From NCBI GenBank assembly GCA_038746285.1, contig JBCDKT010000010.1, positions 1-64,000 of the forward strand: a DNA stretch of 64,000 nt, written 5' to 3'. Every line of letters begins with the position of its first letter. Within the stretch, counting starts at the first letter, position 1. The notes beneath the pieces were generated by a model. It searched no databases and was not told where the DNA came from. It worked only from the letters and a program-made list of their open reading frames with translations. The translations under genes and the position numbers were made by a program. The DNA is from Bacteroidota bacterium. Lineage in GTDB: Bacteria; Bacteroidota; Rhodothermia; Rhodothermales; JANQRZ01. Below, one piece after another: positions 8,997 to 35,448 of this stretch.

Positions 8997-9022
8997 CTCT
9001 GCCAAGCGAGAGCCGGTGTGCC

Positions 9023-12644: not shown

Positions 12645-12652
12645 GTCTGTAA

Positions 12653-13224: not shown

Positions 13225-13229
13225 GGCGG

Positions 13230-16073
13230 CTACCGGCTGAGGTAGAGGTTGCGCATCTCGTAGGGGCGGCTGAAGTGCTCGTCGGTCAGGTCGGCGACGA
13301 AGGCGATGGCTTCGCCGGTCGACTTCATCTCGGGACCTAGCTCCTTCGCCACCTCGGGGAATTTGGTCCACGAGAAGACCGGCTCCTTGACGGCGTAGCC
13401 TTCGAGCGTGCTCTCGAGCTCGCCTCGCTCGCGGAACGTCGCCAGCTTCTCGCCGAGCATGACTTTCGTCCCAATCGCGGCGTAGGCGATGCCGGTCGCC
13501 TTGGCGATGAACGGGACCGTCCGACTGGCACGCGGGTTGGCCTCGATCACGTAGACCGTCTCGTCTCTGATGGCGAACTGGACGTTCATCAGGCCCTGGA
13601 TCTCCAGACGCCGGGCGATGCGCTCGGCGTAGTCGCGGATCGTGGCCTGGACCTCGTCGGAGAGCGAGTACGGCGGGAGCACGGCCGTCGAGTCACCTGA
13701 GTGGACCCCGGCGGGCTCGATGTGCTGCAAGATGCCGCAGACTTCGAGCTCGTCGCCGTCGAAGATCACGTCGCAATCAACCTCGATGGCGTTCTCCAGG
13801 AAGAGGTCGAGGAGGATGTCGTTCTCGGGGAGCATCTGGAGGATGTCGGCGACGTAGCCCGAGACCTCTTCTTTGTTGATCGCGATCCGCATCCCCTGGC
13901 CGCCGAGGACGTAGCTCGGGCGGATCAGGATCGGGTAGCCGATCCCCTCGGCCACGTCGACCGCCTCGTCGACGGTCTGTGCCATGCCATATTCGGGGAA
14001 TGGGACGCCCAGCTCTTCGAGGATTTCGGAGAACTTACCCCGGTCCTCGGCGAGGTCCATCTTGGGGTACGGCGTCCCGAAGATGTGGATGCCGTGCTCC
14101 TGGAACCCGCCCGCGAGCTTGAGCGCGGTCTGCCCGCCGAGCTGGAGGATGACACCCTCGGGCCGCTCGTGCTCGATCACGTCGAGGACGCGCTCCCAAA
14201 AAACGGGCTCGAAGTAGAGCTTGTCGGCCACGTCGAAGTCGGTCGAGACGGTCTCGGGGTTGCAGTTGATCATGATGGCCTCGTAGCCGAGCTCGCGCGC
14301 GGCGAGGACGCCGTGGACGCACGAGTAGTCGAACTCGATGCCCTGCCCGATCCGGTTCGGGCCGGAGCCGAGGATGAGGACTTTCCGGCGGTCCGTCGCC
14401 TCGCTCTCGGTCTCGCCCTGGTCATAGGTCGAGTAGAAGTACGGCGTCTCGGCGGCGAACTCGCCCGCGCAGGTATCGACGACCCGGTAGGTCGGCGTGA
14501 GGCCAAGCTCCTTGCGATGCGCCCGCACGTCGTCTTCGGTGACCTCGTCTTTGAGGAGGAAGGCAATCTGGCGGTCGGAGAAACCGTGCTGCTTGACGCG
14601 CAGCAACAGGTTGGCCTCGAGTTCGTGGAGGGCGAGGGTGCTGATCTCGCGCTCGGTCTCGACGAGGGCCTTGATCTGGTGGAGGAACCAGGGGTCGACG
14701 CGGGTGATGTCGGCGATCTCCTCGACGCTCGCGCCGTGGGTGAAGGCGTTGCGGATCTGGAGCGTCCGGTCCCAATACGACTTCTTGAGCCGCTCGCGGA
14801 CCCTCGTCCGGTGGTCCGGGTCGCGGTCGGCCCCGAGGCCGGCGTAGCCGAGTTCGAGACTCTGCCAGGCTTTCTGGAGGCTTTCGGTGAACGTCCGCCC
14901 GATTGCCATCGCCTCGCCGACGGCCTTCATCTGGGTCGTCAGTTCCTCGTCGACGCCCTCGAACTTCTCGAAGTTGAAGCGCGGGACTTTGGTGACGACG
15001 TAGTCGAGGGCCGGCTCGAAGCACGCGCTCGTCGTGCCGGTAACTTCGTTCGGCAGTTCGTCGAGCGTGTAGCCGACGGCGAGGCGGGCGGCGACTTTGG
15101 CAATCGGGTAGCCCGTCGCCTTCGACGCGAGCGCCGAACTCCGGGACACGCGCGGGTTGATCTCGATGACGACCATGCGCCCGGTCGCGGGGTCGAAGGC
15201 GAACTGGATGTTGCACCCGCCGGCGAAGGTGCCGATCGAGCGCATTGCCCGGATCGCGGCGTCGCGCATCTGCTGGAACTGCTTGTCGGTGAGGGTCTGC
15301 TGCGGGGCGATGGTCACCGAGTCGCCCGTGTGGACCCCCATCGGGTCCAGGTTCTCGATCGAGCAGATGATGATGACGTTCTCGGCCGCGTCGCGGAGAA
15401 GTTCGAGCTCGTACTCTTTCCACCCGAAGAGGCACTCCTCGATCAACACCTCGTGGATGGGCGAGAGCTCGAGCCCGCGCGTGACCTTGCGGTCGAACTC
15501 GTCGGCCGACCACACGATGCCGCCGCCGGCCCCGCCCATCGTGAAGCTCGGCCGGATGACGATGGGCTGGAAGCCGAGCCCGCCGCCTAGCTCCTGGGCG
15601 ATCTCGTTGGCTTCGAGGAGCGACTTCGCCACACGGCTCCGCGCCTGGTCGAGGCCGATCGACTCCATGAGGTCGCGGAAGCGCTGGCGGTCCTCGGTGA
15701 TGCGGATCGCGTCGATGTCGACCCCGATCACGTCGACGCCCATTGTCTTCCAGTACGCCTCCTCGTGGAGCACCTCGGCGAGGTTGAGCGCTGTCTGCCC
15801 CCCCATCGTCGGAAGCACGGCGTCGGGCCGTTCTTTTTCGACGATCTCTTTGATTGACTTCGGCGTCAGCTCCTGGAGGTAGACCGTGTCGGCCATGACC
15901 GGGTCGGTCATGATGGTCGCCGGGTTGGAATTGACGAGGACGACCTCGTAGCCCTCGGCGCGGAGCGCCTTCGAGGCCTGGCTGCCGGAGTAGTCGAACT
16001 CGCACGCCTGCCCGATCACAATCGGGCCGGAGCCGATGAGGAGGATTTTGTTGATGTCGGTGCGTTTGGGCAC
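13230..16073 (-). CDS. carB: Carbamoyl-phosphate synthase large subunit, short form
   Basis: Makes carbamoyl phosphate from bicarbonate, ATP and ammonia delivered by CarA, feeding pyrimidine and arginine synthesis. Both ATP-grasp halves are visible: the first with ILLIGSGPIVIGQACEFDYS and MGGQTALN, the second with VLILGSGPNRIGQGIEFDYS and LGGQTALK. At 947 residues it stops after MRNLYLSR, where the E. coli protein (1073 residues) continues into the MGS-like allosteric domain. That domain is absent, so UMP/ornithine control through CarB is not expected; short CarB forms are known in Bacteroidota. The 3' end is duplicated downstream. Confidence 0.95.
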   Translation of the reverse strand: MPKRTDINKILLIGSGPIVIGQACEFDYSGSQASKALRAEGYEVVLVNSNPATIMTDPVMADTVYLQELTPKSIKEIVEKERPDAVLPTMGGQTALNLAEVLHEEAYWKTMGVDVIGVDIDAIRITEDRQRFRDLMESIGLDQARSRVAKSLLEANEIAQELGGGLGFQPIVIRPSFTMGGAGGGIVWSADEFDRKVTRGLELSPIHEVLIEECLFGWKEYELELLRDAAENVIIICSIENLDPMGVHTGDSVTIAPQQTLTDKQFQQMRDAAIRAMRSIGTFAGGCNIQFAFDPATGRMVVIEINPRVSRSSALASKATGYPIAKVAARLAVGYTLDELPNEVTGTTSACFEPALDYVVTKVPRFNFEKFEGVDEELTTQMKAVGEAMAIGRTFTESLQKAWQSLELGYAGLGADRDPDHRTRVRERLKKSYWDRTLQIRNAFTHGASVEEIADITRVDPWFLHQIKALVETEREISTLALHELEANLLLRVKQHGFSDRQIAFLLKDEVTEDDVRAHRKELGLTPTYRVVDTCAGEFAAETPYFYSTYDQGETESEATDRRKVLILGSGPNRIGQGIEFDYSCVHGVLAARELGYEAIMINCNPETVSTDFDVADKLYFEPVFWERVLDVIEHERPEGVILQLGGQTALKLAGGFQEHGIHIFGTPYPKMDLAEDRGKFSEILEELGVPFPEYGMAQTVDEAVDVAEGIGYPILIRPSYVLGGQGMRIAINKEEVSGYVADILQMLPENDILLDLFLENAIEVDCDVIFDGDELEVCGILQHIEPAGVHSGDSTAVLPPYSLSDEVQATIRDYAERIARRLEIQGLMNVQFAIRDETVYVIEANPRASRTVPFIAKATGIAYAAIGTKVMLGEKLATFRERGELESTLEGYAVKEPVFSWTKFPEVAKELGPEMKSTGEAIAFVADLTDEHFSRPYEMRNLYLSR

Positions 16074-16160
16074 GGCGGTGTGGGTGAAGCGTAGCGGTGG
16101 CGCAGACGTGGGGGCGGGTCTGAGACCCGCCCGTACAGAGCGTTGCTCCGGTTGCTCTCG

Positions 16161-16397
16161 TCAGCTGCCGAAGCCGCTGACGGTGTAGTCCTTCGGCCGT
16201 TCGAGGACGACGAGCGCGGCGTACCCGGCGCGGGGCGCGAGGTCGGAGTCGATGCCGGTCGAGGCCCCGCCCATCGCGGCGACGTGGAGCGGGAGCCAGC
16301 CGTCGCCGAGGAGGTCGTTGAGCGCGGCGAGCGAGGCGGACTCGCCCTCGGCGTCGGGGTCGTAGTAGACGATGTGTGCTTTGCGTTCGGTAGCCAT
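16161..16397 (-). CDS. Small hypothetical protein between carA and carB
   Basis: A 78-residue soluble protein (AHIVYYDPDAEGESASLAALN, GWLPLHVAAMGG, YAALVVLERP). The pattern of a short strand, helix and a second strand ending in an aliphatic run suggests a small alpha/beta domain, but I do not recognise it. Its start overlaps the stop of the preceding 62-residue frame (TGATG), so it is part of the carA-carB transcript. It might tune the synthase, but that is only a guess from location. Confidence 0.65.
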   Translation of the reverse strand: MATERKAHIVYYDPDAEGESASLAALNDLLGDGWLPLHVAAMGGASTGIDSDLAPRAGYAALVVLERPKDYTVSGFGS

Positions 16398-16585
16398 CAG
16401 GAGGCCGGAGGAAGGAGTTTAGGAGGAGGCGGACGACCGACACGCTTGCGAACGTGTCCATCGGGGTTGGGTGGGAGGAGGCCGAGCGCCTTCATCTCGC
16501 AGCGCAGCCGCCACGCGACTTCCATCGGCGGGCGCGGTACGGCGCGTCCGACAACGCGGCGGATGCGAGCGCGAGGGTCAGCCAT
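16397..16585 (-). CDS. Tiny basic hypothetical protein between carA and carB
   Basis: A 62-residue Arg/Pro-rich protein (ARIRRVVGRAVPRPPMEVAWRLRCEMKALGL, then a proline-rich tail). It begins 3 bp after the carA stop codon and overlaps the next gene at TGATG. The compact linkage argues for a real gene; the composition (many Arg and Pro in GC-rich DNA) argues for caution. No recognisable domain. Confidence 0.45.
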   Translation of the reverse strand: MADPRARIRRVVGRAVPRPPMEVAWRLRCEMKALGLLPPNPDGHVRKRVGRPPPPKLLPPAS

Positions 16586-16588: not shown

Positions 16589-17710
16589 TCAGGCGGTTTC
16601 GGGGTGGGTCTCGGCGATGAGGTCGAGGAACTGGTCGAAGAGGTAGGCACTGTCGTGCGGGCCGGGCGACGCCTCGGGGTGGTACTGCACTGAGAGCCCG
16701 GGGAAGGCGACGAAGCGCAGGCCCTCGACGGTCCCGTCGTTGAGGTTGCGGTGGGTCACGCGGGCAACGGCATCGGTGACCGAGTCTTCCTCAACGGCGA
16801 AGCCGTGGTTCTGGGTCGAGATCTCGACGTCGCCTCGGTCGAGGTTCTTGACGGGCTGGTTCGCGCCGCGGTGGCCAACCTTCATCTTGTAGACCTCGAT
16901 CCCGTGCGCGAGGCCCATGAGCTGGTGGCCGAGGCAGATGCCGAAGGTCGGCAGCCCGCTCTCGGAGGCGGCCTTCGCGGTCTCGACGGCGTCCGGCATC
17001 GCGCGCGGGTCGCCGGGGCCGTTGGATAGGAAGAGGCCGTCGGGGTTCCAGTCGAGGACCGTTGCGAGCGGGGTCGATGCGGGGAAGACGCGGACGGTGC
17101 AGCCGCGCCGGGCAAACGAGCGGAGGATGTTGCGCTTGACGCCGTAGTCGTAGACCGCGACCCGAGGGCCCTCCCCTTCGGCGAAGTCGTAGGCCTCGCT
17201 GGTGGTGACGCGGCTGGCGAGTTCGAGCCCGGCCATGCTCGGGTGCGCCTTCGCTTTCGCCACGAGGCTGTCGTCGTCGAGGTCCACCGACGAGATGACG
17301 GCGTTCAGGACGCCGCCCTGTCGGATGCGCCGGACGAGCCGCCGCGTGTCGACCCCGGTGATGCCGACGAGTTCGTGCCGCCGCATCCAGGCCTCGAAGC
17401 TCTCGTCGGCAAGCGTATTGGAATACTGATCGACGAAGGCGCGCGTGACGAGGCCGGCGACCATCGGGCGGTCGGCTTCGAGGTCGGCCTCGGCCGCGCC
17501 GTAGTTGCCGATGTGCGGGTAGGTCATCATCATGATTTGCCCGACGTAGCTCGGGTCGGTCATGATCTCTTGGTAGCCGGACATGCTCGTGTTGAAGCAC
17601 AGCTCGCCGGCCGTCTCGCCGAGGTGGCCGACGGCCAGGCCGGTGACGACGGTCCCGTCTTCGAGGGCGAGCTTCGCCGGGGCGCGGTCAGAGGTAGAGT
17701 CAGGCGTCAT
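16589..17710 (-). CDS. carA: Carbamoyl-phosphate synthase small (glutaminase) subunit
   Basis: Hydrolyses glutamine and channels ammonia to CarB. The N-terminal CPSase_sm_chain domain has LALEDGTVVTGLAVGHLGET and FNTSMSGYQEIMTDPSYVGQ. The C-terminal class I glutaminase has the nucleophile Cys259 (FGICLGHQLMGLAHG) and His344/Glu346 (SVQYHPEASPGP). Length 373 residues is standard. It is the first gene of a carA-orf-orf-carB cluster. An intrinsic-terminator-like hairpin lies in its leader (see 17765-17793), which suggests control by attenuation. Confidence 0.96.
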   Translation of the reverse strand: MTPDSTSDRAPAKLALEDGTVVTGLAVGHLGETAGELCFNTSMSGYQEIMTDPSYVGQIMMMTYPHIGNYGAAEADLEADRPMVAGLVTRAFVDQYSNTLADESFEAWMRRHELVGITGVDTRRLVRRIRQGGVLNAVISSVDLDDDSLVAKAKAHPSMAGLELASRVTTSEAYDFAEGEGPRVAVYDYGVKRNILRSFARRGCTVRVFPASTPLATVLDWNPDGLFLSNGPGDPRAMPDAVETAKAASESGLPTFGICLGHQLMGLAHGIEVYKMKVGHRGANQPVKNLDRGDVEISTQNHGFAVEEDSVTDAVARVTHRNLNDGTVEGLRFVAFPGLSVQYHPEASPGPHDSAYLFDQFLDLIAETHPETA

Positions 17711-18009: not shown

Positions 18010-18729
18010 GTGCCCGAGCCCACCTCCCCGCATCCCCGACGTCTCCGCTCCGAAGGCCACAACCAGGCCTACCGGGCGCGCATCCTGGGCGCGCTCGCGC
18101 TGAGCCTGCTCGTGCTGACGCTGGCCTTCCGGCTCTGGCCCGCCGAGCGGCCGGCTCCCGAGCGGCGCTACGTCGCCACGCCGCAGGAGCGGATCGAGCT
18201 CGAACTGATCGAGCCGACGGCGCAGACGCGCCGGGCCGCCCCGCCCCCGCCGCCGACGCTCCCGCCCGTCGAGGTGCCGGACGACGTGGAAATCCCCGAG
18301 GAGGTGATCGAACTCGACGTGCCCGACCTTAGCCCGGACGTCGCGCCCGTCGAGATCGACGCGCCGCCGGGCTTGGAGGAACTCGACGGCGAACCCGAAG
18401 GGCCGGTCTTCGTCGAGCGCGCCGACCGCCGGCCGCGCACGGTGACGCCAGTCTTCCCAGACTACCCGCGCGAGGCTGAGCGACGCGACATCCGCGCCCG
18501 CGTCCGCATCCGCGCCCTGATCGACGAGCGCGGCCGGGTGCAGGAGACGGTCATCCTCGAACGGGTGCTGCTCGACAAGCGCGACCGCGAGGAGCGGGTC
18601 GCCGAGATCGGCTACGGCGTCGAGGAGGCTGTGCTCGACGCGGCCCGCCGCACACGCTTCCGCCCCGGCCGCCACGGCGGTCGCCCCGTGCAGACGTACA
18701 CGACGCTGACGCTCAGCGTCGGCGTTTGA
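18010..18729 (+). CDS. tonB: Energy transducer TonB-like protein
   Basis: A 239-residue inner-membrane protein. An N-terminal helix (ARILGALALSLLVLTLAFRLW) is followed by a proline/acid-rich periplasmic linker. The TonB C-terminal domain begins at VTPVFPDYPREAERRDIRARVRIRALIDERG, with the later AVLDAARRTRFRPGRHGGRPV and YTTLTLSV. It would pass proton-motive force to outer-membrane receptors such as the one at 29.7-31.9 kb. The GTG start at 18010 gives a short cytoplasmic tail; a GTG at 17947 is also in frame. No exbB/exbD is adjacent. Confidence 0.85.
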   Translation: MPEPTSPHPRRLRSEGHNQAYRARILGALALSLLVLTLAFRLWPAERPAPERRYVATPQERIELELIEPTAQTRRAAPPPPPTLPPVEVPDDVEIPEEVIELDVPDLSPDVAPVEIDAPPGLEELDGEPEGPVFVERADRRPRTVTPVFPDYPREAERRDIRARVRIRALIDERGRVQETVILERVLLDKRDREERVAEIGYGVEEAVLDAARRTRFRPGRHGGRPVQTYTTLTLSVGV

Positions 18730-18736
18730 GGCTGCT

Positions 18737-19339
18737 GTGCGCCCGTACGACCAGATCGCCGACTGGTACGCCTTAGCGCGCGACCCCGAGGCCGGCCTGG
18801 ATGATCTCGCGGCGTTCGCCTGCCCCCTCCCGGCCGGCGCGGCCGTCCTCGACCTCGGCTGCGGCAACGGCGTCCCGGTCTCCCGCTTCCTGCTCCAACA
18901 AGGCTTCGCCGTGACCGGGCTGGACTCGTCCCCAGCGATGCTGGCGAGGTACCGCACGCACTTCCCCGCCGTGCCCGCCCGCTGCGAGCGCGCCCAGGAC
19001 GCCCGCTTCGAACCGGAAACCTTCGACGCCGTCGTCGCCTGGGGCGTGCTGTTTCACCTGTCAGAGACCGAGCAGGCCGCCGTGATCGGGAAGGTGGCAC
19101 GGTGGCTCCGACCCGGCGGGCGCTTCGTGTTTACCTCGGGCGAGGCGAAGGGCGTGACGGAGAGCAAGATGGACGGCGTGACGTTTGGCTACACCTCGCT
19201 CGGCCGCGATGCGTACCGCCGTCTCGCCGAGGCGTCGGGCATGCGCTGGGTCCGGGACTACACGAACGCCTGGGACAACCACGTCTACGCCGTCCAGAAA
19301 CGCCCTCTCCAAAATGAGTTGCTGCGGCTAGCTACCTAA
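18737..19339 (+). CDS. Class I SAM-dependent methyltransferase
   Basis: A 200-residue Rossmann-fold methyltransferase. Motif I is VLDLGCGNGVPVSRFLLQQG, the acidic loop is VTGLDSSPAML, and motif IV/post-motif is FDAVVAWGVLFHL, followed by LRPGGRFVFTSGE. It starts with GTG 7 bp after the tonB-like gene, so cotranscription is likely. No substrate-specific domain is present and the substrate is unknown. It is the last core-looking gene before the accessory stretch that extends to sbcC. Confidence 0.88.
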   Translation: MRPYDQIADWYALARDPEAGLDDLAAFACPLPAGAAVLDLGCGNGVPVSRFLLQQGFAVTGLDSSPAMLARYRTHFPAVPARCERAQDARFEPETFDAVVAWGVLFHLSETEQAAVIGKVARWLRPGGRFVFTSGEAKGVTESKMDGVTFGYTSLGRDAYRRLAEASGMRWVRDYTNAWDNHVYAVQKRPLQNELLRLAT

Positions 19340-19394
19340 CGCATTCCGGTACAGAGGAAAGTCGCACCCTCTCCTCGATGAGCGCTCGACGGAG

Positions 19395-19619
19395 GTGGCA
19401 ACCAAAGCGGGTGGCTGGCCCAGCCTCAGTCGCTGCTCCAGCTGCGGCCAGCACTGGCAGATCGACATCGGCATATCTGGGTGGGATGCGAGGCATAGGG
19501 TGCAAGGCGTCGTGTATTGCCCGGTTCACCTCCACGAAATAGGTGCCCGGCGCTTCCCGGCCCGTACCCGCGAGAAGGTACTCGGAGAGTCCCGCGCTCG
19601 CAGGCCAACGTCGGGCTGA
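19395..19619 (+). pseudogene. Possible cassette ORF or gene remnant with a Cys-x-x-Cys-Gly-Gln motif
   Basis: A 74-codon frame with a GTG start containing RCSSCGQHWQIDIG and a later VVYCPVHL, which looks like a small zinc-binding protein rather than a random shadow. Its last codons enter the attC-like repeat at 19600-19709, an arrangement typical of a gene cassette. The surrounding 19340-19969 stretch has no other convincing gene; a hydrophobic fragment near 19724-19800 (LNQVLSFTDRITRSP, then a leucine/alanine run) may be another remnant. Confidence 0.28.
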
Positions 19620-19709
19620 ACGGCTCCGCGTTCGCCGTGCTACCGCCAGTCGCTATCTTCGACCGGAACGCTCCGTCCCCGGCACGGCTGAAGCGCCGCT
19701 CCGTTGTGC
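19600..19709 (+). repeat. attC-like repeat, copy C
   Basis: Shares conserved ends with two repeats near 47 kb: a left end GCAGGCCAAC (GCAGGCCGAC and GCGGGCCGAC in the others) and a right end GGCTGAAGCGCC followed ten bases later by GTTGTGC. The centre is unrelated. Length (110 bp) matches the others (115 and 110 bp from the same left motif). Conserved ends with a variable middle is the signature of integron attC sites, though the core boxes are not canonical. Confidence 0.45.
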
Positions 19710-19969
19710 CGCACTCGCGCCGTTGATGCCGCTCAACCAAGTTCTCTCCTTTACCGACCGTATCACCCGCTCCCCTTCCGTCGTGCCCCTACTCCTGGCC
19801 CTCGCAGCAGGCTTTGGCCTCGTTCGACATCCCGAGTGGGCGATGTCGGCCCCGTTCGCAGCGTCAGGGCGCTGCCCGAGTAGAGAGGATGGTCGGACCG
19901 CTCTCGCTCGGGGCGCGGCATAGCCGCACGCTGTTCTACCGCACTCCTGGTTCTCCGTACTCCCCCGCT

Positions 19970-20740
19970 ATGTCTAGGAAGCTCGATCATGCAAAGGCTC
20001 TCTACCTCGAGGGCATCCGGGATGGACGCGCACGAGAAGCCGTCACTCGCTACACAGGCGACCGCTATACCCAGCACTCGACCGGTGTACGCGACGGTGT
20101 CGAGGGCTTCGTCGCCTTCTTCGAGCCATTCATTCAGCGAAACCCGATCCGAGACATCGAGATCGTTCGCGGCATCGAGGACGGTCGCTACGTCTTCGTC
20201 CACGCCTATCAGAGCCTGAACAACGGTGCGGCCGAATGGGTCACGACGGATTTTTTCGATACTGACTCCGACGACCTAATCGTCGAGCATTGGGACGTGA
20301 TCGCACCGTACGTCGCGGAGACGCCGTCGGGCCACACGTCGGTCGACGGGCCAACGGAGATCGAGGACTTGGATCAAACCGAAGCCAACAAAGCCCTCGT
20401 CCGGTCCATGACCGAGGACTTGTTGACACCGGGTGAGCGTTCCCCGAGGGCAGCAGACTACATCGCGCAGGACATCGTGCAGCACGATGCAGACCTAGCA
20501 GACGGTCTCGACGCTTTCCGGGCGATGCTCCGCTCTCCCGACCGCTTGCAGTACCACGAGATCTTTCTGCTTGTCGGCCAGGGCAATTTCGTGGCGACGC
20601 TCTGCCGCGCGTCGCGGGGAGACCAGGAGGTCGCGCAGGTGGATCTGTACCGGATCGATGGCGGGATGGTCGCCGAGCGGTGGACCAACGCCGAGGACGT
20701 CCCGGCCGCAGCAGACTCCGTCAACGGCGGCAAGTTCTAG
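19970..20740 (+). CDS. Tandem SnoaL/NTF2-like protein
   Basis: A 256-residue soluble protein containing two NTF2-like (SnoaL) domains. The first opens with DHAKALYLEGIRDGRAREAV and YTQHSTGVRDGVEGFVAFF; the second with NKALVRSMTEDLLTPGERSP, IVQHDADLADGLDAF and GGMVAERW. SnoaL domains are small-molecule cones used as cyclases, isomerases or binding proteins. The ATG at 19970 gives the family-typical N-terminus. It lies directly left of the first sbcC-end duplicate and is probably accessory. Confidence 0.82.
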   Translation: MSRKLDHAKALYLEGIRDGRAREAVTRYTGDRYTQHSTGVRDGVEGFVAFFEPFIQRNPIRDIEIVRGIEDGRYVFVHAYQSLNNGAAEWVTTDFFDTDSDDLIVEHWDVIAPYVAETPSGHTSVDGPTEIEDLDQTEANKALVRSMTEDLLTPGERSPRAADYIAQDIVQHDADLADGLDAFRAMLRSPDRLQYHEIFLLVGQGNFVATLCRASRGDQEVAQVDLYRIDGGMVAERWTNAEDVPAAADSVNGGKF

Positions 20741-20762
20741 CCCAGCCCCAGGTGCGGCTGTA

Positions 20763-20830
20763 CAGAGGCCGATCGCGTCGTAGCCGGAGCCGTCGACGGG
20801 GTCTTTCCTGACCTCGATGCGGACGGGGAA
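20763..20830 (-). repeat. Extra copy 1 of the sbcC 3' end
   Basis: A 68-bp block matches the terminal bases of sbcC (25038-25105) with four differences. On the minus strand it encodes VRIEVRKDPVDGSGYDAIG, against VRIEVKKDPVDGSGYDVIG in the gene. It has no upstream gene body. It marks the left edge of the MarR/SDR module. Confidence 0.92.
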
Positions 20831-20848
20831 GAAACTTATGGGGCACAC

Positions 20849-20862
20849 CAATGTTTAGCACT
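20849..20862. promoter_or_regulatory. Candidate operator/promoter segment before the MarR gene
   Basis: The AT-rich stretch AATGTTTAGCACTAT just upstream of the MarR ATG contains TGTTTAG. The same seven bases occur in the opposite orientation (CTAAACA) at 21335-21341, just upstream of the downstream dehydrogenase gene. A shared half-site at both promoters would suit autoregulation plus target control by the MarR protein. Two short matches only. Confidence 0.28.
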
Positions 20863-20867
20863 ATACT

Positions 20868-21287
20868 ATGACCACTCGCTCGCTCCCCGTCCGTACGTGG
20901 CTCCGGCTCGTTCGCGTAGCCCAAAAGGTAGGCCGCGCGGCCGAAGGCCCACTCGCAGACCTCGACCTCACGGCGGGACAGTTCGCTCTGCTCGCGGCGG
21001 TCGGCGCAGCCGAAGGGGCGCTCCAAGATGACCTGGCCGGCCGGCTCGCCACCACGAAAGGGAACGTGAGCCAACTCCTCGCCAAGCTGGAAGCGAAGGA
21101 ATACGTCCACCGGGTCCCCAACGGGCGGACGAAGGCGGTCCATCTCACGCAGGGTGGGCGTGCGCTGCTCGACCGCGAGGTCCCCGCCCACGACACCTTC
21201 ATCGAAGACCGTCTCTCAGCCCTGTCCGCTGACGACCTCGACCGCCTCCACGGTCTCCTCGTCAAGCTCGACCGAAGCCTGGACTGA
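20868..21287 (+). CDS. MarR-family transcriptional regulator
   Basis: A 139-residue winged-helix regulator. The DNA-binding core is LTAGQFALLAAVGAAEGALQ, DDLAGRLATTKGNVSQLLAKLE (recognition helix) and the wing VPNGRTKAVHLTQGGRALL. Flanking helices would dimerise. It lies 63 bp upstream of the membrane-SDR fusion gene on the same strand and probably regulates it. Both genes lie between copies 1 and 2 of the sbcC 3' end. Confidence 0.9.
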   Translation: MTTRSLPVRTWLRLVRVAQKVGRAAEGPLADLDLTAGQFALLAAVGAAEGALQDDLAGRLATTKGNVSQLLAKLEAKEYVHRVPNGRTKAVHLTQGGRALLDREVPAHDTFIEDRLSALSADDLDRLHGLLVKLDRSLD

Positions 21288-21350
21288 CCCGTTACCCAGC
21301 CAACGGAAGGCGACCCCCTACTTACAGTTCACCACTAAACACTCACACTC

Positions 21351-22637
21351 ATGAAGCTCATCCTCTTCGTCCTCACCGGCGCGGTCTTCGCTGCCTTCAT
21401 CAACGCTCTCCTCTTCGCCATAGCCTCCGCGCTCGGCGGGTTCGGCCCCGGCGTAGTCGCCATCTCCGCCGGACAGCCCCTGACGCTCGCGCCCGTCGTC
21501 GTGGCGAGCGTGGGGGGCGTGGCCGGGGCTGGGCTCCTCCGGGCCGGGCTCGGCGTCGTCTTCCAGCGGTCGCGGGCGCGGTGGGTGTTCTTCGGGGTCG
21601 CGTTCGTGGTCCTGCTCCTCTCGTTCGCAACGCCACTCACTGGACTGGAAGGGGCGGGAGCTGCCGACGTCCTCGTTCTCGAACTGATGCACGTTCTGAC
21701 GTTCTTGGCGGCTGTTGTGGCCGTCGAGCATGGAACCCGGCCGTCGTGGGGATGGGGACGCGAGGCCTACGCCGAGCGCGAGGTACCGGAGCCCAAAGCT
21801 GCCTTCGTGACGGGGGCAACGGGCGGGATCGGGGCCGAGGTCGCCACCCAGCTCGCAGAGCGGGGCTGGCGCGTCGTCGGGCTGGGGCGGAGCGAGGCGA
21901 AGGCTCGCGCTGTCGAGCGCCGTGCTGGCAGCTTACCGGGCCAGGTCACCGTCCTCACGGGCGACCTCTCGCTCGTAGCCGAGGCCGACCGGCTAGCAGC
22001 GGAGGCCAGCACGCTCGCTGGGACGGAAGGGTTCTCGGCCATCGTTCACGCGGTCGGCACGCTCAAGCCAGCGTCACGGCCGACGGCCGAAGGGATCGAC
22101 GAGAACATCTCCACGTCGTGGCTCGCGCGCGTCGCCACGAACGAGAGCGTCGCTCTCGCGGACGGAGCCCGCGTCGTCAACGTCGCCGCAGCCGAGAGCG
22201 GACGCCTCCCAAGTCGTTTCGGAGCAGTCCCATCTGAGCCTGCCGACCTCGGGACCGGCATGGCGGCTCACGGCCAGGCCCAACTCACCAACGACCTGTG
22301 GGCGGCGGACCTCGCCCGGCGCGGCACCTCAGTGTGGGGCTACGGGCCGGGGGCGGTGGATACGGAGATCCGCCGAGAACTGCCCCCGCTCGTGCGCCGC
22401 CTCATGCGTCCTCTGTTCTGGGCCGAGACCCGTCCTCCAGGAGACGCTGCCGCCGACATCGTCCGGCTACTTCTCGACCGCTCGCTCCCGGCGTCTGGGT
22501 TCGCCAGCAGGACCGGACCGTTCGAGCACGCCCCCTTCATCCACGACGAAGCAAACCAGGAGGCCGTACGGCGGCTCGCGGGAAGACTCTTGTCGCAGGC
22601 CCGGGGTGCGGACCGTAGGGTAACAAAGTCGACCTGA
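21351..22637 (+). CDS. DUF6069-like membrane domain fused to a degenerate short-chain dehydrogenase
   Basis: A 428-residue fusion. Residues 1-127 form four hydrophobic helices resembling DUF6069 (MKLILFVLTGAVFAAFINAL, then APVVVASVGGVAGAGLLRAG). Residues about 145-428 are a short-chain dehydrogenase with an intact nucleotide loop (AAFVTGATGGIGAEVATQLA). The catalytic YxxxK of the family aligns with His-Gly-Gln-Ala-Gln in GMAAHGQAQLTNDL, so both Tyr and Lys are lost, and the Ser strand reads VVNVAAAESG. Probably a membrane-tethered NAD(P)-binding sensor or pseudoenzyme rather than an active reductase. Confidence 0.78.
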   Translation: MKLILFVLTGAVFAAFINALLFAIASALGGFGPGVVAISAGQPLTLAPVVVASVGGVAGAGLLRAGLGVVFQRSRARWVFFGVAFVVLLLSFATPLTGLEGAGAADVLVLELMHVLTFLAAVVAVEHGTRPSWGWGREAYAEREVPEPKAAFVTGATGGIGAEVATQLAERGWRVVGLGRSEAKARAVERRAGSLPGQVTVLTGDLSLVAEADRLAAEASTLAGTEGFSAIVHAVGTLKPASRPTAEGIDENISTSWLARVATNESVALADGARVVNVAAAESGRLPSRFGAVPSEPADLGTGMAAHGQAQLTNDLWAADLARRGTSVWGYGPGAVDTEIRRELPPLVRRLMRPLFWAETRPPGDAAADIVRLLLDRSLPASGFASRTGPFEHAPFIHDEANQEAVRRLAGRLLSQARGADRRVTKST

Positions 22638-22676
22638 GCCACCCCGATTGCCCCATGCACTTGAGCGCTTCCCTGC

Positions 22677-22740
22677 CAGACGCCGATCACGTCGTAGCCG
22701 GAGCCGTCAACGGGGTCTTTCCTGACCTCGATGCGGACGG
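22677..22740 (-). repeat. Extra copy 2 of the sbcC 3' end
   Basis: A 64-bp block matches sbcC bases 25038-25101 with three differences; the stop codon is altered (TCA to CCA on the + strand). It shares the substitutions CCTGACCTCGATG with copy 1 against CTTGACCTCAATG in the gene. It separates the MarR/SDR module from the AraC/epimerase module. Confidence 0.93.
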
Positions 22741-22858
22741 TTCGACGGGCCGGATGTTGTAGGATGCCTCAACGTGATAGCGCAGAAATACCTCTTGCGC
22801 AACTTGGCAACGTTTTACTGTAGTCCGTCAGGCGAGTTACGTTGCGCTGCCCCGAAGC

Positions 22859-23806
22859 TCAGTTACCGGTCACTGCCTTCTCGCGATTCGCCCTTAGCCG
22901 AGCGATATCGCGGGTGGGAGGGGCACCGAAGAGGCGCCTGTATTCGCGGCTGAATTGGGACGGGCTGGCGTAGCCCACGCGGTACCCAGCCGTCGCAGCG
23001 GTCAGGCCCTCGCCCAGCATCTGCGCGCGCGCCTCGCGCAATCGCAGTTCTTTCTGGTACTGGAGCGGCGTCATCGCCGTCACGGCCTTGAAGTGGCGAT
23101 GCAGCGCCGAGGCGCTCAGGCCCACCTCGCGCGTGAGCGCCTTCAGATCGTACCGCTCGGCGTAGTTCGCCTTGAGCCACGCGATTGCCTGCGCGACGGC
23201 CTGGAGCCGTGGGTTGGCCCTGGCGATCTGCCGTGCGAGTGCGCCGTGCGGCCCTGTCAAGAGCCGGTACTGGACTTCTTCGAGCACCAACGGCACAAGC
23301 GCACCGGCGTCGCGAGGAGATTGAAGGAGCCGCACCAGGCGCACGGTCGCATCGAGCAGCGTGTGGGTGACCGGACGGATAGACACGCCGCGATCCAACT
23401 CGGAGCCGCTGAGCGTAGCCTCTTCCAGGCCGTGCTTTGCCGTCGCCGCCGCTACCTCGGCCGGGTTCAGCGCGAGCGCTAAGCCTAAGCACGGCGCATC
23501 AGGGCTTGCTTCGAGCACCCGCACGATGACCGGGAGTTCGAACGACACCACGAGGCACTCGGCGGGGCCGTGCGCGAACGTCTCCTCGGCCAGGACGAGT
23601 TCTTTCCGGCCCTGCGCCAGGATCCAGAGCGCCACGCCCTGTTGCAGGTGTAGCGGACGAGTGGGCCGCGCGTACCGGATCAGCTTCAGCGGCTCGATGG
23701 TCGTAGCGTGGCTACCCTCAGCAGAGGCAAATCGTGCAATGAGGCTGGCCAACTCTGCCCGTTGCGTTGCCAGGCTAGGGTCCGTCGTGCTACTGTTCAT
23801 AGCCAT
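22859..23806 (-). CDS. AraC-family transcriptional regulator with AraC_N cupin-like domain
   Basis: A 315-residue regulator. The N-terminal AraC_N ligand domain (IEPLKLIRYARPTRPLHLQ, ALWILAQGRKELVLAEETFA, CLVVSFELPVIVRVLEASP) is followed by a double helix-turn-helix (DLKALTREVGLSASALHRHF and AGYRVGYASPSQFSREYRRLFG). This family usually controls adjacent oxidoreductase genes. It is transcribed away from the epimerase gene 260 bp away, giving a shared divergent promoter region. The ATG at 23806 matches the family N-terminus better than the longer frame to 23947. Confidence 0.9.
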   Translation of the reverse strand: MAMNSSTTDPSLATQRAELASLIARFASAEGSHATTIEPLKLIRYARPTRPLHLQQGVALWILAQGRKELVLAEETFAHGPAECLVVSFELPVIVRVLEASPDAPCLGLALALNPAEVAAATAKHGLEEATLSGSELDRGVSIRPVTHTLLDATVRLVRLLQSPRDAGALVPLVLEEVQYRLLTGPHGALARQIARANPRLQAVAQAIAWLKANYAERYDLKALTREVGLSASALHRHFKAVTAMTPLQYQKELRLREARAQMLGEGLTAATAGYRVGYASPSQFSREYRRLFGAPPTRDIARLRANREKAVTGN

Positions 23807-24066
23807 ATCGCTTGTCTCCGAAACTCGAACTCCGATAGATACTGCCTCGCTGTCGCGCACGACACTGCTGCATCTTGGGACTCTGCAAGTTCGTTTACTG
23901 TGCCGCGGCCGGAGCGGCCACGAAAGCAGATAAGTAAGATCAGGCAAGAATTGCGTGATTCTGGGTCATCCGCTCGCGTGCCGGTCCGGTTGTATCCCCA
24001 CGCTGCCTCGGCAGAACCGGACGCCAGGCGGCATTTGGCCGTTCTCCGCTTCAACATCGCCCCCCT

Positions 24067-25005
24067 ATGCCTACGCAAGAGACTACCTCCGCAATCCCCA
24101 CAGCGCGTGTTTTCGTGACCGGTGCCACCGGCTTCATCGGCTCCGCCATCACACGCCGCCTCCTGGACGACGGCTACGAGGTGACTGGCCTCGCCCGCAG
24201 TGATGCAGCCGCCGAGACCCTCCGCCAGCGAGGCATCGGCGTACACCGCGGCGACCTGACAGACCCCGCCAGCCTCGCCGCCGGCGCTCGGGCTGCCGAC
24301 GGCGTCATCCACACGGCGTTCATCCACGATTTCTCCCGGTACGAGGAGAACAACCGGATCGACCGGCGCGCCGTTGAGGCGATAGCCGACGCGCTCGAAG
24401 GATCGGGCAAGCCGTTCGTGGCGACCTCGGCCACGACGGTGCTTGCCCCTGGCCGGCTCGGCACGGAAGAAGATGCGCCGGACCCGAACAACCCAGGGTC
24501 TGTGCGTGCGGCTTCGGAGGCGGCGTTGCCGGCGGCCCGGCGCGGCGTCCGCGCGAGCGTGGTGCGCCTCCCCCCCTCCGTGCACGGCCCCGGCGACACC
24601 GCCTTCGTGCCGGCGCTCATCGAGGCCGCGCGCCAGACCGGCGTCTCCGCCTTCGTCGGGGAAGGCGAGAACCGCTGGCCGGCGGTGCATCGCCTCGACG
24701 CCGCGCGGCTCTTCCGCCTGGCCTTCGAGAAGGCTGAGCCGGGGACCGTGCTGCACGGCGTGGCCGAGGAAGGCATCCCGATGCGCCGGATCGCTGAGGT
24801 CATCGGCGAGGGGCTAGGCGTCCCGGTGCGCGCGATTCCGGCCAGCGAGGCCCCCAGCCATTTCGGTTGGCTGGCAGGCTTCGTGCAGATCGACAACCCC
24901 ATCTCCAGCGCCCTCACGCGCGAGTGGGCCGGTTGGCAGCCACAGGAGGCCGACCTACTGACCGACGTACGCGAGAACGGGTATTTCTCCCAAGAAACTG
25001 AGTGA
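24067..25005 (+). CDS. NAD-dependent epimerase/dehydratase family protein (extended SDR)
   Basis: A 312-residue extended-SDR protein. The nucleotide-binding loop is VFVTGATGFIGSAITRRLLDDGY, followed by VHRGDLTD, GVIHTAFIHDF and ATSATTVLA. The usual catalytic YxxxK is not evident: the corresponding stretch reads RAASEAALPAAR, as in several atypical members. Related genes are often paired with AraC_N regulators, as here. It ends 31 bp from the sbcC stop codon, and with its regulator occupies the space between copy 2 and the true sbcC end. Confidence 0.87.
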   Translation: MPTQETTSAIPTARVFVTGATGFIGSAITRRLLDDGYEVTGLARSDAAAETLRQRGIGVHRGDLTDPASLAAGARAADGVIHTAFIHDFSRYEENNRIDRRAVEAIADALEGSGKPFVATSATTVLAPGRLGTEEDAPDPNNPGSVRAASEAALPAARRGVRASVVRLPPSVHGPGDTAFVPALIEAARQTGVSAFVGEGENRWPAVHRLDAARLFRLAFEKAEPGTVLHGVAEEGIPMRRIAEVIGEGLGVPVRAIPASEAPSHFGWLAGFVQIDNPISSALTREWAGWQPQEADLLTDVRENGYFSQETE

Positions 25006-25036
25006 GTCCGCCGGGAGGGCGAGCACCGCGTAGCCC

Positions 25037-28000
25037 TCAGACGCCGATCACGTCGTAGCCGGAGCCGTCGACGGGGTCTTTCTTGACCTCAATGCGGACG
25101 GGGAACGCCTCCTTTAGCTCGTCGAGGTGGGTGATGACGAGGATCTTGTCGAAGTCCTCGCGGATGGCCTGGATGGCCTCGACGAGACGCTCGATGCCCT
25201 GCTTGTCCTGCGTCCCGAAGCCCTCGTCGACGACGAGCGTGCGGATGCGGACGCCGCTGCGCTCGGCCAGCAGTTGTGCGAGGGCGATGCGGAGCGCGAA
25301 GTTGACCCGGAAGGCCTCGCCGCCGGAGAAGGTCTCGTAGGGGCGCGGCACGCCGCCGGCGTCGGTGATCTTGATGTCGAGCGTCTCTTTCGTCCCGCCG
25401 GTCTTTTTGTCCTTCAGCGTCTCCAGCGTGACGCGGGTGCGACCTTTGGCGAGGCGGTCGAGGAGCGCGTTCGCCCGGTCCTCGATCTCGGGCAGGGTCT
25501 CCTCGATGATAAGCGCCGGGATGCCGTTCTTGCCGAAGGCGTCGCGGAGGTGGCGGTAGAGCGTGCGGTCCCGCATGGCGTCGCGGTGCTCGGCGCGGAC
25601 GGCCTTGAGCGCGTCGCGGTCGCGGGCGGCGCGCTCCAGGCGCTCGCGGATGCCGCCGAGGCGGGCCTGGGCGTCGCTGAGGCGGGTGGCGAGCCCGGCG
25701 CGGCGCTCGGTGTGGGTACGCTGCTGCTCGGCGAGGTCGGCGCGGGCAGCGAGGCCCGACTGCGCGGCCTCGACGGCGGCGCGGAGCGCACCGGTGTCTT
25801 CGTCGTTCTGGGCGACTTCGTCGGCAATCTGGGTACGACGGGCGGTCCAGTCGGCGAGCCGGTCGCGGGCGTTGAGGAGCGCCGAGCGGCGGTCGGGTGC
25901 CTCGGCGAGGGCGTCGCGGTCGCGGCGGACGGCGTCGTGGCGGGCGGCGTCGTAGCCGAGCGTGCCGAGCTGCTGCTGGAGCGCGTCGATCTGCCGCTGG
26001 ACCGGCGCGAAGGCCTCGCCCGAGGCGAGCTGCTCGCGGAGCGCTGCTTCCTCGCGCTGTCCGGCTTCGATCTTCTGCGCGAGCGTGTCGCGCCGCCCCT
26101 CGACCTCGCCCAGGTCGCGCAGCGTGGCTTCGTGGCGGGCGCGCTGCGCGGCCTCGGCCTGCACCTGCTCGAACCGCTCGGGGTCGAACGGAAGCTCGCG
26201 GAGCCTGTCTTCGAGGTCGGTCCGCTCGGCGCGGAGGGCGGGGCTGAAGGCGTCGTCCCGAAGCTGCCGGTCGAGGTCGTCGGCGCGGGTCCGCCGCGCG
26301 GCGAGGTCGGCGACGGCCTCCTCGGCGGTGGCGATCCGGCCCTGCACCGCGGCGAGGGTGTCGGCCACGCCGTTCTGCTGCTCGATCCGTGCCTTGAGGT
26401 CGGCAAAGCGGCGGAGCAGGCCGGCGCGCTGCTCCTGCCGCTGCTGCACCTCGCCCTCGACGCGGGCGATCCCGGCTGCGAGCGCAGCCTTTTCTTCGGC
26501 ATAGGTCTGCCCGACAGTCCGGCGGTGCTCGGGCGTGAGGTCGGTCCCGCAGGTCGGGCACGTCTCGGTGTCGAGGGCTCGCATCCGCTCGGCCTTCTCG
26601 TCCACCCGTTTCACCTCGCCCCGCAGGCGCTCGATCTCGCGCTGCAGCCCGTCGATCTCGGCCTTGACGCCGCTCCCCTGCTCGCGCACGGTCGCCTGCT
26701 CGGCCTTCACCGACTCGACTGTGGCGACGCGCTGCTCCAGGTCCGACGCCTGCTGCTTCAGACCGGGCAGGGCTTGGGCGTGGACGCTGGCCGACTTGAT
26801 CTGCTCGCGCAGGCTGCGGATGCTGGCCTGGAGCGCCCCCCGCTCGCTCGCCAGCGACTTGTCGAGCGCCGTGATGCGGGCCTCGAACGCCTGCCGCTCG
26901 GTGCGGCGGGCACGCAGGGCTTCAAGCTCGCGCTCGGCGGTGCGGGCCGCATCCAGTCCGCGCTCGGCGATGGGCCGTTCGAGGAGGCGACGCTCGGCCT
27001 CGGCGTGCGCCTTCCGGTCGGCTTGCACCTCGGCGTCGAGTTTGCCGAGGCGCTTCTCGTGGTCCATCCGCTGCCGCTCCAGCTCCAGCTTCTTCTCGTT
27101 TAGCTGCTTCTCGACCCCGCGCCAGAGGTCGGCTTTCTGGCTGAGGTCGCGGTACTCCTTGTCGAGCGCGGTCCACCGCTCGTAGTCGCGCTCGATGGCG
27201 TCGCGCTGCGCGATCAGCGTCTCGGCCTGCGTGATCCGCCCGGCGAGGTCGGTCCGCTCGCGGTCGAGTTCCTGGCGGCGTGCGGCGAGGCGGGCGAGGC
27301 GGGCCTGCTGGCCTTCGACAGTCTGGGCTAGGCTGTCGAGTTCCGCGAGGCGCTCGGTGAGGCGCTTGCCCTCGGTGTCGGCGTCGGCCTGGTCTTGTTT
27401 TAGTTTTGCAATAACAGATTCAAGCTCCGCACCCTCCTCCTTCCACCGCCCCTCGTCTTCGAGCGCCCCCGTCAGCCGCTCGATCTCCAGGTCGGCCCGC
27501 TTGCCACGCTCGGTCGCCTCCGACAGCCGGCCGCGCGCGACGGCGGCGTATTTCTCGTAGCGGTCCAGCCCGAGGATCCGGCCGAGGATCTCCTTGCGCT
27601 CGCCGGATTTCTTCTTGGTGAACTCGTCGCTCCGCCCCTGGAGCAGGAACGCCGAGTTGATGAACGTCTCGTAGTCCAGCCCGAGCGTGTCGGTGATGAC
27701 GGCCTGCGTGTCCTTGACCGAACCCTCAGTGAGCGCCCGGAAGTCGGTGCCGTCCCACGCCTGAAACTCCAGCCCCGGCTTCGAGGTCTTGCCGGAGGCC
27801 GAGCGCTGGAACGAGCGCACGACGCGGTAGCGCCCGCCTTCGAGGTCGAAGACGAGCTCGACCTGCATGTCGCGCGTGCCGATGCGGAGGAGGTCTTCGT
27901 CGGGCTTGCGGGCATCGCTCGACTTCCGCGCCTCGCCCCAGACGGCCCAGGTGATGGCGTCGAGCAGCGCCGACTTGCCCTGCCCGTTGCCGCCCGAGAG

Positions 28001-28090
28001 GCACGCGACGTGGAACTGCTCGAAGTCGAGCGGCTCGGCGTCGGTGCCGTACGAGAGAAAGTTGCGGAGCCTGAGGGAAACGGGAACCAT
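25037..28090 (-). CDS. sbcC: Nuclease SbcCD subunit C (SMC-like ATPase)
   Basis: A 1017-residue Rad50/SbcC homologue that with SbcD opens hairpins and resects DNA ends. The N-terminal lobe has Walker A GGNGQGKSALLDAITWAVWG and the Q-loop region. Long coiled-coil arms surround a zinc hook (ETCPTCGTDL, about residue 508). The C-terminal lobe has the signature FSGGEAFRVNFALRIALAQL and Walker B TLVVDEGFGTQDKQG. No sbcD gene is adjacent within the window. Its 3' end has been duplicated twice downstream by accessory insertions, but the gene itself is intact. Confidence 0.96.
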   Translation of the reverse strand: MVPVSLRLRNFLSYGTDAEPLDFEQFHVACLSGGNGQGKSALLDAITWAVWGEARKSSDARKPDEDLLRIGTRDMQVELVFDLEGGRYRVVRSFQRSASGKTSKPGLEFQAWDGTDFRALTEGSVKDTQAVITDTLGLDYETFINSAFLLQGRSDEFTKKKSGERKEILGRILGLDRYEKYAAVARGRLSEATERGKRADLEIERLTGALEDEGRWKEEGAELESVIAKLKQDQADADTEGKRLTERLAELDSLAQTVEGQQARLARLAARRQELDRERTDLAGRITQAETLIAQRDAIERDYERWTALDKEYRDLSQKADLWRGVEKQLNEKKLELERQRMDHEKRLGKLDAEVQADRKAHAEAERRLLERPIAERGLDAARTAERELEALRARRTERQAFEARITALDKSLASERGALQASIRSLREQIKSASVHAQALPGLKQQASDLEQRVATVESVKAEQATVREQGSGVKAEIDGLQREIERLRGEVKRVDEKAERMRALDTETCPTCGTDLTPEHRRTVGQTYAEEKAALAAGIARVEGEVQQRQEQRAGLLRRFADLKARIEQQNGVADTLAAVQGRIATAEEAVADLAARRTRADDLDRQLRDDAFSPALRAERTDLEDRLRELPFDPERFEQVQAEAAQRARHEATLRDLGEVEGRRDTLAQKIEAGQREEAALREQLASGEAFAPVQRQIDALQQQLGTLGYDAARHDAVRRDRDALAEAPDRRSALLNARDRLADWTARRTQIADEVAQNDEDTGALRAAVEAAQSGLAARADLAEQQRTHTERRAGLATRLSDAQARLGGIRERLERAARDRDALKAVRAEHRDAMRDRTLYRHLRDAFGKNGIPALIIEETLPEIEDRANALLDRLAKGRTRVTLETLKDKKTGGTKETLDIKITDAGGVPRPYETFSGGEAFRVNFALRIALAQLLAERSGVRIRTLVVDEGFGTQDKQGIERLVEAIQAIREDFDKILVITHLDELKEAFPVRIEVKKDPVDGSGYDVIGV

Positions 28091-33392: not shown

Positions 33393-34533
33393 CGTCCCTC
33401 CGACTCCCCCGCTGCCGCCGCCACGCCTGAGCGCCCGAGGGCTGGCGATTGCCGCCGGCCTCGGGGTGCTCTACGCGGTGGCGAGTGGGCTCGTCGTCGC
33501 CCAGCTCGACGGCAGCAACGGGTTCTACGACGCGCCCTACCCCGTCGCGATCGTCGGCGCCCTCGTCGAGTACGCGCTCGTCGGCGTGCTGATGCTCGGG
33601 GCGTGGGCGCTCGTGATCCGAGGCCTCGACGGTGCTGGCTGGGGCTGGAAGCTAGCAGCCCACCTTGTGCTCGCGCCCGTGTTTGCGGTCGCGTGGTACG
33701 CGCTCTACGCGCTCGTCGTCGGCGCGATGACGGGCGAGAACCTCCTGGACATCGCCGACATCTTCGTCGACGGGCGGTGGGGGCTGTTCTCGAAGCTGAC
33801 GGAGTACGTGCTGATCGTGGCGGTGCTGCACACGGTGCGCGAGGTGAACCGGCTGCGCGCGCGCGAGGCGCAGGCGCGCGACCTCGCTGCGCTCGCACAG
33901 GAGCGGGAGCTGGCCGCGCTCAAGGCACAGCTCAACCCGCACTTCCTCTTCAACGCGCTCAACTCGATCAACGCCGCGCTCGCGGGGCGGCGCGAGGACG
34001 CCCGCTCGATGGTAGTCGGGCTGGGCGACCTGCTGCGCTACGCGCTCGCCGCCTCGGAGCGGGCCGAGGTCCCACTCGCCGAGGAGGTCGCAGCGGCCGA
34101 GGCCTACCTCGCCATCGAGCAGCACCGCTTCGCCGACCGGCTCCGGGTCGAGGTCGCCGTCGCGCCCGACGCGCTCGCCGTCCCGGTGCCGCCGCTCGTC
34201 GTGCAGCCGCTCCTGGAGAACGCCGTCCGCCACGGCCTCGCCCCAACCGAGCGCGGCGGTACGGTCCGCCTCACCGCCCGCCGCGACGGCGGGCACCTCC
34301 GCATCACCGTCGAAGACAACGGCACCGGTGCCTCCGACCTCGACCCGGCCGCGCTGCTCGATGCGGGCGTCGGGCTGCGCAACACCGACCGGCGGCTGCG
34401 GACGCGCTACGGCGAGGCGGCCGGGCTGCAGATCGACGCGCCGTCGGACGGAGGCTTTCGCGTCCGCTTCGCCATCCCGGCACCCGTCGCCGAATCGCCC
34501 CCCATCCTCGAACCGGCGGAGGCATCGGTATGA
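33385..34533 (+). CDS. LytS/YehU-type sensor histidine kinase
   Basis: A 382-residue membrane kinase. Four or so transmembrane helices occupy the N-terminal 150 residues, then a short coiled coil (REAQARDLAALAQERELAAL). The His_kinase domain is diagnostic: LKAQLNPHFLFNALNSINAA with the phospho-accepting His. The HATPase_c region has PPLVVQPLLENAVRHGLAP (N box) and ITVEDNGTGA (G1). The GTG at 33385 fits the overlap with the preceding gene. The stop overlaps the regulator start (ATGA), so the two form a two-component system. Confidence 0.92.
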   Translation: MPDVPPTPPLPPPRLSARGLAIAAGLGVLYAVASGLVVAQLDGSNGFYDAPYPVAIVGALVEYALVGVLMLGAWALVIRGLDGAGWGWKLAAHLVLAPVFAVAWYALYALVVGAMTGENLLDIADIFVDGRWGLFSKLTEYVLIVAVLHTVREVNRLRAREAQARDLAALAQERELAALKAQLNPHFLFNALNSINAALAGRREDARSMVVGLGDLLRYALAASERAEVPLAEEVAAAEAYLAIEQHRFADRLRVEVAVAPDALAVPVPPLVVQPLLENAVRHGLAPTERGGTVRLTARRDGGHLRITVEDNGTGASDLDPAALLDAGVGLRNTDRRLRTRYGEAAGLQIDAPSDGGFRVRFAIPAPVAESPPILEPAEASV

Positions 34534-35297: not shown

Positions 35298-35448
35298 CGT
35301 AGAGCACCGACCGCGCTCACCCTGAACCCATCGCCCTGCAGCGGGACGGGAGTGCCACTAGGTAGGGCGTGCTCGCCGGGCGCGCCGTCCTCCCCCGGCT
35401 GCGCCAAGCAGCAGCGGACGCCTCCCCGCGTCTCTACTGCAAGCGTCT

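Follow-up and report, generated by a model that had tools for sequence, protein, structure and literature searches.

Displaced 3' ends of host genes beside small accessory modules in a Rhodothermales genome: sbcC and other gene ends

The sbcC locus and its stacked modules

The DNA analysed here (the window) comprises 64,000 nucleotides of contig JBCDKT010000010.1 from a bacterium of the Rhodothermales (assembly GCA_038746285.1; 4.08 Mb in 134 contigs, hereafter G000), and carries an intact sbcC gene whose last 64-68 nucleotides (nt) recur twice downstream as orphan copies, or tails, lying between small accessory modules. This locus exemplifies a genome-wide pattern in which the 3' ends of many host genes are found displaced behind inserted genes; events of this type are known, but such a distribution of them has apparently not been described. 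Comparisons were made mainly with G001, a genome of the same genus (the Rhodothermales metagenome-assembled genome IP29b_bin.81, named through an 88% match), and with G002, of the same family. The features at the locus are as follows.

25037-28090, minus strand: sbcC/Rad50-type exonuclease subunit gene, intact; stop codon 25037-25039; called as an open reading frame
25038-25105, minus strand: present sbcC 3' end, the gene copy of the repeat
22741-25036: module 1, probably the newest; AraC-type regulator 22859-23806 (minus) and short-chain dehydrogenase/reductase (SDR) of epimerase fold 24067-25005 (plus); Pfam AraC_N, HTH_18, Epimerase
22677-22740, minus strand: orphan sbcC tail o1, 64 bp, 61/64 identical (95%)
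20831-22676: module 2; MarR-type regulator 20868-21287 (plus) and membrane/SDR fusion 21351-22637 (plus); Pfam MarR_2, adh_short
20763-20830, minus strand: orphan sbcC tail o2, 68 bp, 64/68 identical (94%)
19970-20740, plus strand: third, convergent accessory gene, SnoaL-like, the outermost module; Pfam SnoaL_2; stop at 20740

The sbcC product is 88% identical to that of G001 and 68% to that of G002, and scores 302.7 bits against TIGR00618, under the cut-off of 478.5. The three sbcC-type ends, which a first-pass annotation had reported from the sequence alone, were recovered at the same coordinates, all in one orientation and within 4.3 kb. A 19-nt core of the tail has exactly three matches in the window (0.25 expected with up to three mismatches), and a search of the whole 4.08-Mb genome returned only three good matches (E-values of 1e-52, 1e-23 and 5e-23, the next being 0.009) and no fourth copy. 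The duplication is confined to the last 64-68 nt of sbcC, with nothing from further upstream, and both orphans end at the sbcC stop codon; full-length decayed sbcC paralogues are thereby ruled out as their source.

Pfam agrees with the MarR, SDR, AraC and epimerase domains assigned earlier; at E<=1e-3 it did not return the DUF6069 domain proposed for the N-terminus of the SDR protein. The description of the locus as two modules holds for the AraC/epimerase and MarR/SDR pairs, but the SnoaL-like gene ends 22 bp from o2, and so three modules lie behind sbcC-type ends; in all three, a plus-strand gene terminates 22-39 bp from such an end. The G+C content at third codon positions (GC3) of the module genes is 78-84%, against 92% in sbcC and carB, and these genes are almost missing from the other genomes of the order that were searched. 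Within the order the epimerase is found only here, apart from a 39% match in one genome (G012), and its relatives at 50-60% identity lie on plasmids of many phyla, one adjoining a helix-turn-helix regulator and one a TetR regulator. No relatives of the membrane/SDR fusion were found in 114 genomes of the order or in 395 sampled from the phylum, and nothing close to a donor of the MarR/SDR module was found in the 395 phylum genomes and plasmids. In G001 and G002 sbcC is present without the modules and with no orphan within 15 kb downstream, being followed by an MscS-type gene in G001 and by an EamA-like transporter (named by eye) in G002; relatives that lack the modules thus lack the orphan tails as well. 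As noted in the first-pass annotation, there is no integrase among the module genes, and none was found among the identified genes flanking sbcC in G001 and G002.

The surroundings of sbcC also differ between these genomes. The gene is located elsewhere in both G001 and G002, and at about 19300 of the window collinearity with G001:C17 and G002:C16 stops, between a methyltransferase gene and the SnoaL gene. To the left of about 19.3 kb the window is collinear with a different region of G001 and G002, which makes the sbcC end a border of rearrangement as well.

The same footprint at other gene ends

Two further host genes with displaced 3' ends lie in the window itself.

13230-16073, minus strand: carB (carbamoyl-phosphate synthase large subunit), second host gene; NF003671, 1432 bits
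12653-13224, minus strand: insert between carB and its orphan tail, a toxin-antitoxin-like DUF4160 + DUF2442 pair (Pfam)
12564-12648, minus strand: orphan carB tail, 80% identical to 13229-13311, with mainly synonymous differences
59492-60922, minus strand: NapH-type 4Fe-4S membrane protein gene, third host gene; Pfam Fer4 domains
58800-59491, minus strand: insert at the 4Fe-4S gene, with a DUF4864 gene (58962-59432) and a ComM/YifB-type 5' fragment (to 58893); Pfam
58713-58799, minus strand: orphan tail of the 4Fe-4S gene, 87-bp repeat, 92% identical to 59498-59584

The distance from carB to the next conserved gene is about 50 bp in G001 and 1.7 kb here, where the DUF4160/DUF2442 pair, the tail and a lipoprotein-like gene follow in that order. 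The carB orphan keeps the EMRNLYLSR end of the protein, with at least six synonymous changes found in neither G001 nor G002. A similar expansion is seen at a carboxyltransferase gene on G000:C3, where the distance to the next conserved gene is 97 bp in G001, 80 bp in G002 and 1328 bp here, the last being made up in order of HicAB, the tail and a decayed DUF433 pair. This order of inner and outer module implies that at carB and the carboxyltransferase gene the tail lies inside the insertion, between two modules; no further tails were found before the next native gene at either site. At the 4Fe-4S gene (64 bits against TIGR02163, below the cut-off) the DUF4864 gene is followed by 95 bp of the ComM-type gene, truncated at the junction, and then by the tail. 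In G002 the DUF4864 gene and the ComM-type gene adjoin the 4Fe-4S gene and in G001 the gap is empty; the G002 neighbourhood represents a donor-type arrangement. A 40-nt sequence beside this orphan tail (58663-58707) recurs near the ends of many G000 contigs; it is probably the end of an insertion sequence at which the assembly breaks off.

Non-coding copies of gene 3' ends were sought in 1.14 Mb of G000, in 0.43 and 0.44 Mb of G001 and G002, respectively, and in 0.35 Mb of other Rhodothermales; genes were called by a simple codon-usage gene finder. Simple-repeat matches in L105 and L043 and tandem-paralogue matches on C1 (146 kb, 166 kb) were discarded. The scan gave 14 pairs of gene and orphan, 11 in G000 and three in G002, with none in G001 or the other Rhodothermales. 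These represent 13 different host genes (sbcC twice) in two genomes of the family, ten of them in G000. Besides the pairs in the window, they are:

G000:C1, gene 34057-35541, orphan 33446-33492
G000:C2, gene 50920-53043, orphan 46080-46173
G000:C3, gene 113266-114951, orphan 115518-115596
G000:C3, gene 77102-77869, orphan 78559-78619
G000:C5, gene 85661-87298 (cut), orphan 84294-84370
G000:C5, gene 20215-22305, orphan 19704-19742
G000:C27, gene 14027-16450, orphan 17190-17233
G002:C5, gene 358673-359932, orphan 360640-360714
G002:C5, gene 254098-255339, orphan 253603-253664
G002:C5, gene 395924-399397, orphan 400084-400206

All 14 pairs are direct, with the orphan downstream of the gene, and are 39-123 bp in length (about 40-95 bp in G000). 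In every pair the homology stops between -3 and +6 nt of the end of the stop codon. Fourteen of the 25 direct repeats of coding with non-coding sequence sit at the downstream 3' end of a gene, for which the probability under uniform placement is about 2e-24, and no inverted repeats were found at gene 3' ends in the scanned sequence. The G000 rate predicts 4.2 pairs for the G001 sample and 3.4 for the other relatives; the probabilities of finding none are 0.015 and 0.033. The host genes include, apart from sbcC, carB and the 4Fe-4S gene, those for an H+-pyrophosphatase, the carboxyltransferase and comEC, and, named by eye, an M48-type peptidase and a RecG-like gene. The 13 host ends are unrelated and have no common motif by eye, and so do not present one conserved attachment sequence. 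Among the inserts are ParE, PIN/FitA-like, UPF0150/HicB with a HicA-like frame, DUF433/DUF5615, DUF4160/DUF2442, GIY-YIG and PIN-like pairs. A toxin-antitoxin-like insert is present at eight of the 13 host loci, some named by eye. That the combination of one regulator and one SDR-fold protein is a module design, as the first-pass annotation took it to be, is not supported, as the other inserts are mostly toxin-antitoxin-like pairs. The open-access literature searched covers insertion with long target duplication, homology-facilitated illegitimate recombination and element accretion, but nowhere in it did we find tails of gene 3' ends treated as a systematic footprint.

These data bear on the earlier proposal of serial integration at the sbcC end. 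Serial acquisition at sbcC is supported by the low GC3 of the modules, the rarity of their genes and the empty state of G001 and G002. However, neither a special feature of the sbcC site nor an integrase-type reaction is indicated: the presence of the tail footprint at many other gene ends makes an sbcC-specific integrase unnecessary, and the same observation rules out an attachment site specific to sbcC.

Diverged tails and a proposed route of acquisition

Across the 14 pairs, gene and orphan tails differ by 57.7 synonymous and 39.3 non-synonymous substitutions (58/97 synonymous). A neutrally decaying copy would be expected to show a synonymous share of 28% (P=6e-11), and adding all gene-side synonymous change raises the expectation to about 44% (P=0.001, slightly optimistic because one change is common to the two sbcC orphans). 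The type of stop codon differs between gene and orphan at two loci. The synonymous excess implies that most of the tails had been working gene ends in separate lineages before being joined, and the sequences therefore suggest that for the most part the tails of two diverged functional alleles have been brought together. Duplication of the recipient's own target does not fit this synonymous excess, nor the foreign tail at carB.

At sbcC itself the evidence for two alleles is thin. Both orphans carry AGG for AAG (C at 25085), a state absent from the gene, G001 and G002, in line with the earlier claim that the orphans share substitutions that the gene lacks. At 25094, however, it is the gene alone that differs (ATT), G001 and G002 carrying the orphan state.

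At each host gene X, the layout is a foreign module, then 39-123 bp of the 3' end of X up to its stop codon, and then an older module or the former neighbour of X. The host gene is intact and continuous and the orphan is homologous to its 3' end, giving a homologous joint on one side. We consider it rather probable that the sbcC orphans are displaced 3' ends from successive additive acquisitions by recombination in a shared gene. A piece of DNA with a tail of X and a neighbour Y, both from a related genome, would recombine with the resident X, most likely as a circularised fragment through one RecA-type crossover in the X tail, or else by recombination in X at one end and end-joining within the resident tail at the other. 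In both forms the outcome would be the order X-Y-x'-Z, where X is intact and nothing is deleted. Each acquisition would displace the previous tail, so that at least two events would have occurred at sbcC, with o2 the oldest end, o1 the next and the gene end the newest. RecA-dependent deletion between longer repeats removes inserts, and only inserts with short tails may thus persist, with toxin-antitoxin modules perhaps adding resistance to loss. An 8-bp microhomology at the comEC junction and the presence of the competence genes comEC and comM speak for such a route; at the 4Fe-4S gene the junction microhomology is about 3 bp.

Several points weigh against this proposal. The outermost, SnoaL-like module has no sbcC tail on its far side (19300-19969 searched), and no donor genome was found in which sbcC is followed by either module. 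The sbcC orphan differences are about equally non-synonymous and synonymous, so that the sbcC locus alone does not discriminate, and junction microhomology could be assessed in two cases only. In eight of 11 co-oriented cases the last stop codon of the module lies no more than 18 bp from the orphan tail, which random fragment ends would not predict; this near-zero gap is unaccounted for by the favoured mechanism.

Single-crossover integration of circularised DNA has been observed in the laboratory, producing partial target duplications of 109-950 bp (Amarir-Bouhram et al., PMC3240628). As in such events and in homology-facilitated illegitimate recombination, the loci described here have a homologous joint in the shared gene and a partial target duplication, and would have a non-homologous joint elsewhere. 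They differ in being natural and fixed rather than selected, in their repeats of 39-123 bp, and in having the far border near a stop codon.

The gain of single genes and small operons without an integrase is common and usually leaves no trace, and displaced tails would provide a simple, countable footprint of it. From such tails one can read where an insertion took place and in what order the events followed, and the divergence between the two tails indicates how closely related the donor was. The tails further suggest a way for toxin-antitoxin modules to settle in the chromosome with no mobile element involved and no harm to the adjoining gene.

Alternative explanations and known systems

The compactness of the modules, which often start 0-75 bp past the host stop codon and end 0-18 bp before the tail, raises the tentative possibility of an undescribed route of mobility: small units lacking an integrase, most of them toxin-antitoxin pairs, would each bring along 40-120 nt copied from a host 3' end and enter precisely behind the stop codon, the recombination being supplied in trans. 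The host gene would then stay intact and arrays would accumulate at many gene ends (about 40 per genome here, by extrapolation). A specific form of this, which we think unlikely, is cassette mobility, where the host 3'-end copy serves as the integration site of a small circle and the recombinase acting in trans is possibly a chromosomal integron integrase. An intact integron integrase is encoded on G000:C27 (L199) at 8920-9909 (TIGR02249, 456.6 bits, cut-off 265), and intact copies in G000 and G002, where tails were found, contrast with a copy in G001, where none were found, that has an in-frame stop codon (TGA). Next to the G000:C27 gene are at least two cassettes, one of which codes for what by eye is a Fic-type protein. 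The sequence GCATAACCC terminates both the HicAB insert and one of the two cassettes beside intI. Like integron gene cassettes, the modules are compact and often toxin-antitoxin, with an integrase in the genome. However, they have a gene tail in the place of attC and occupy scattered single sites: no integron attC was found at module ends, and the HicAB insert alone shows a 9-nt R''-like start. The 13 host ends share no motif, the correlation with the integrase is based on three genomes, and AraC/epimerase and MarR/SDR pairs are untypical of integron cassettes.

The direct repeats at sbcC, one copy of which completes the target gene, have the form expected of an integrative element or cis-mobilizable element (CIME). 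If cis-mobilizable islands without an integrase had integrated site-specifically at the 3' end of sbcC and undergone attL-attI-attR accretion, this would explain the stacked repeats and the nearly identical inner border of the two orphans (64 and 68 bp), and the resemblance extends to the accretion of integrative and conjugative elements (ICE) and integrative mobilizable elements (IME) at gene 3' ends, with stacked modules that lack an integrase and are bounded by gene 3'-end copies. This reading is nevertheless improbable, as no integrase or related element is present at sbcC in the genomes examined, and 12 further gene ends of different sequence, all with this structure, would call for as many integrases. 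The lack of a cognate integrase and the many unrelated host ends in one genome are also what set the present case apart from those elements.

We give equally little credence to the idea that target duplication accompanied insertion within a single lineage and that the outer copy then decayed. Restriction-modification genes of Helicobacter pylori insert with long target duplication (Nobusato et al. 2000, as cited in PMC1643837, PMC3874152 and PMC4978471), and direct repeats of tens to about 100 bp surround addiction-type modules of this kind (PMC3874152). The 39-123 bp repeats and the empty sites at carB and the C3 carboxyltransferase gene reproduce this structure, and both systems have integrase-less addiction-type genes between target-derived direct repeats of about 100 bp with an empty site in relatives. 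In contrast, the repeat here is always a gene 3' end up to the stop codon, the copies are diverged alleles, and many module types and stacking are seen. Homology halts at the stop codon in all cases without run-on, and the substitutions are too synonymous, the carB tail being foreign, for decay of a duplicated target. Lastly, a chimera of strain variants is very improbable even in a metagenome assembly as fragmented as this one, since the copies differ by 4-20% plus indels, the longest exact shared stretch at sbcC is under 40 nt, the tiles read contain no N, and G002 has the same pattern.

Some minor observations accompany these loci. No Rfam families or tRNA genes were found within the 64-kb window. 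At the junction of the comEC orphan tail (G000:C27, 17137-17200) there is a degenerate copy resembling a nearby tRNA gene and its promoter (18692-18795). A possible mirror case on G000:C3 (133944-134019 and 136417-136493) has a 77-bp copy of a gene 5' end (-36 to +41) upstream, 86% identical. At 58374-58571 the window carries a small gene of 65 amino acids that resembles a precursor of a ribosomally synthesised and post-translationally modified peptide or of a lasso peptide, with several copies at 77-95% identity in G000 and G001.

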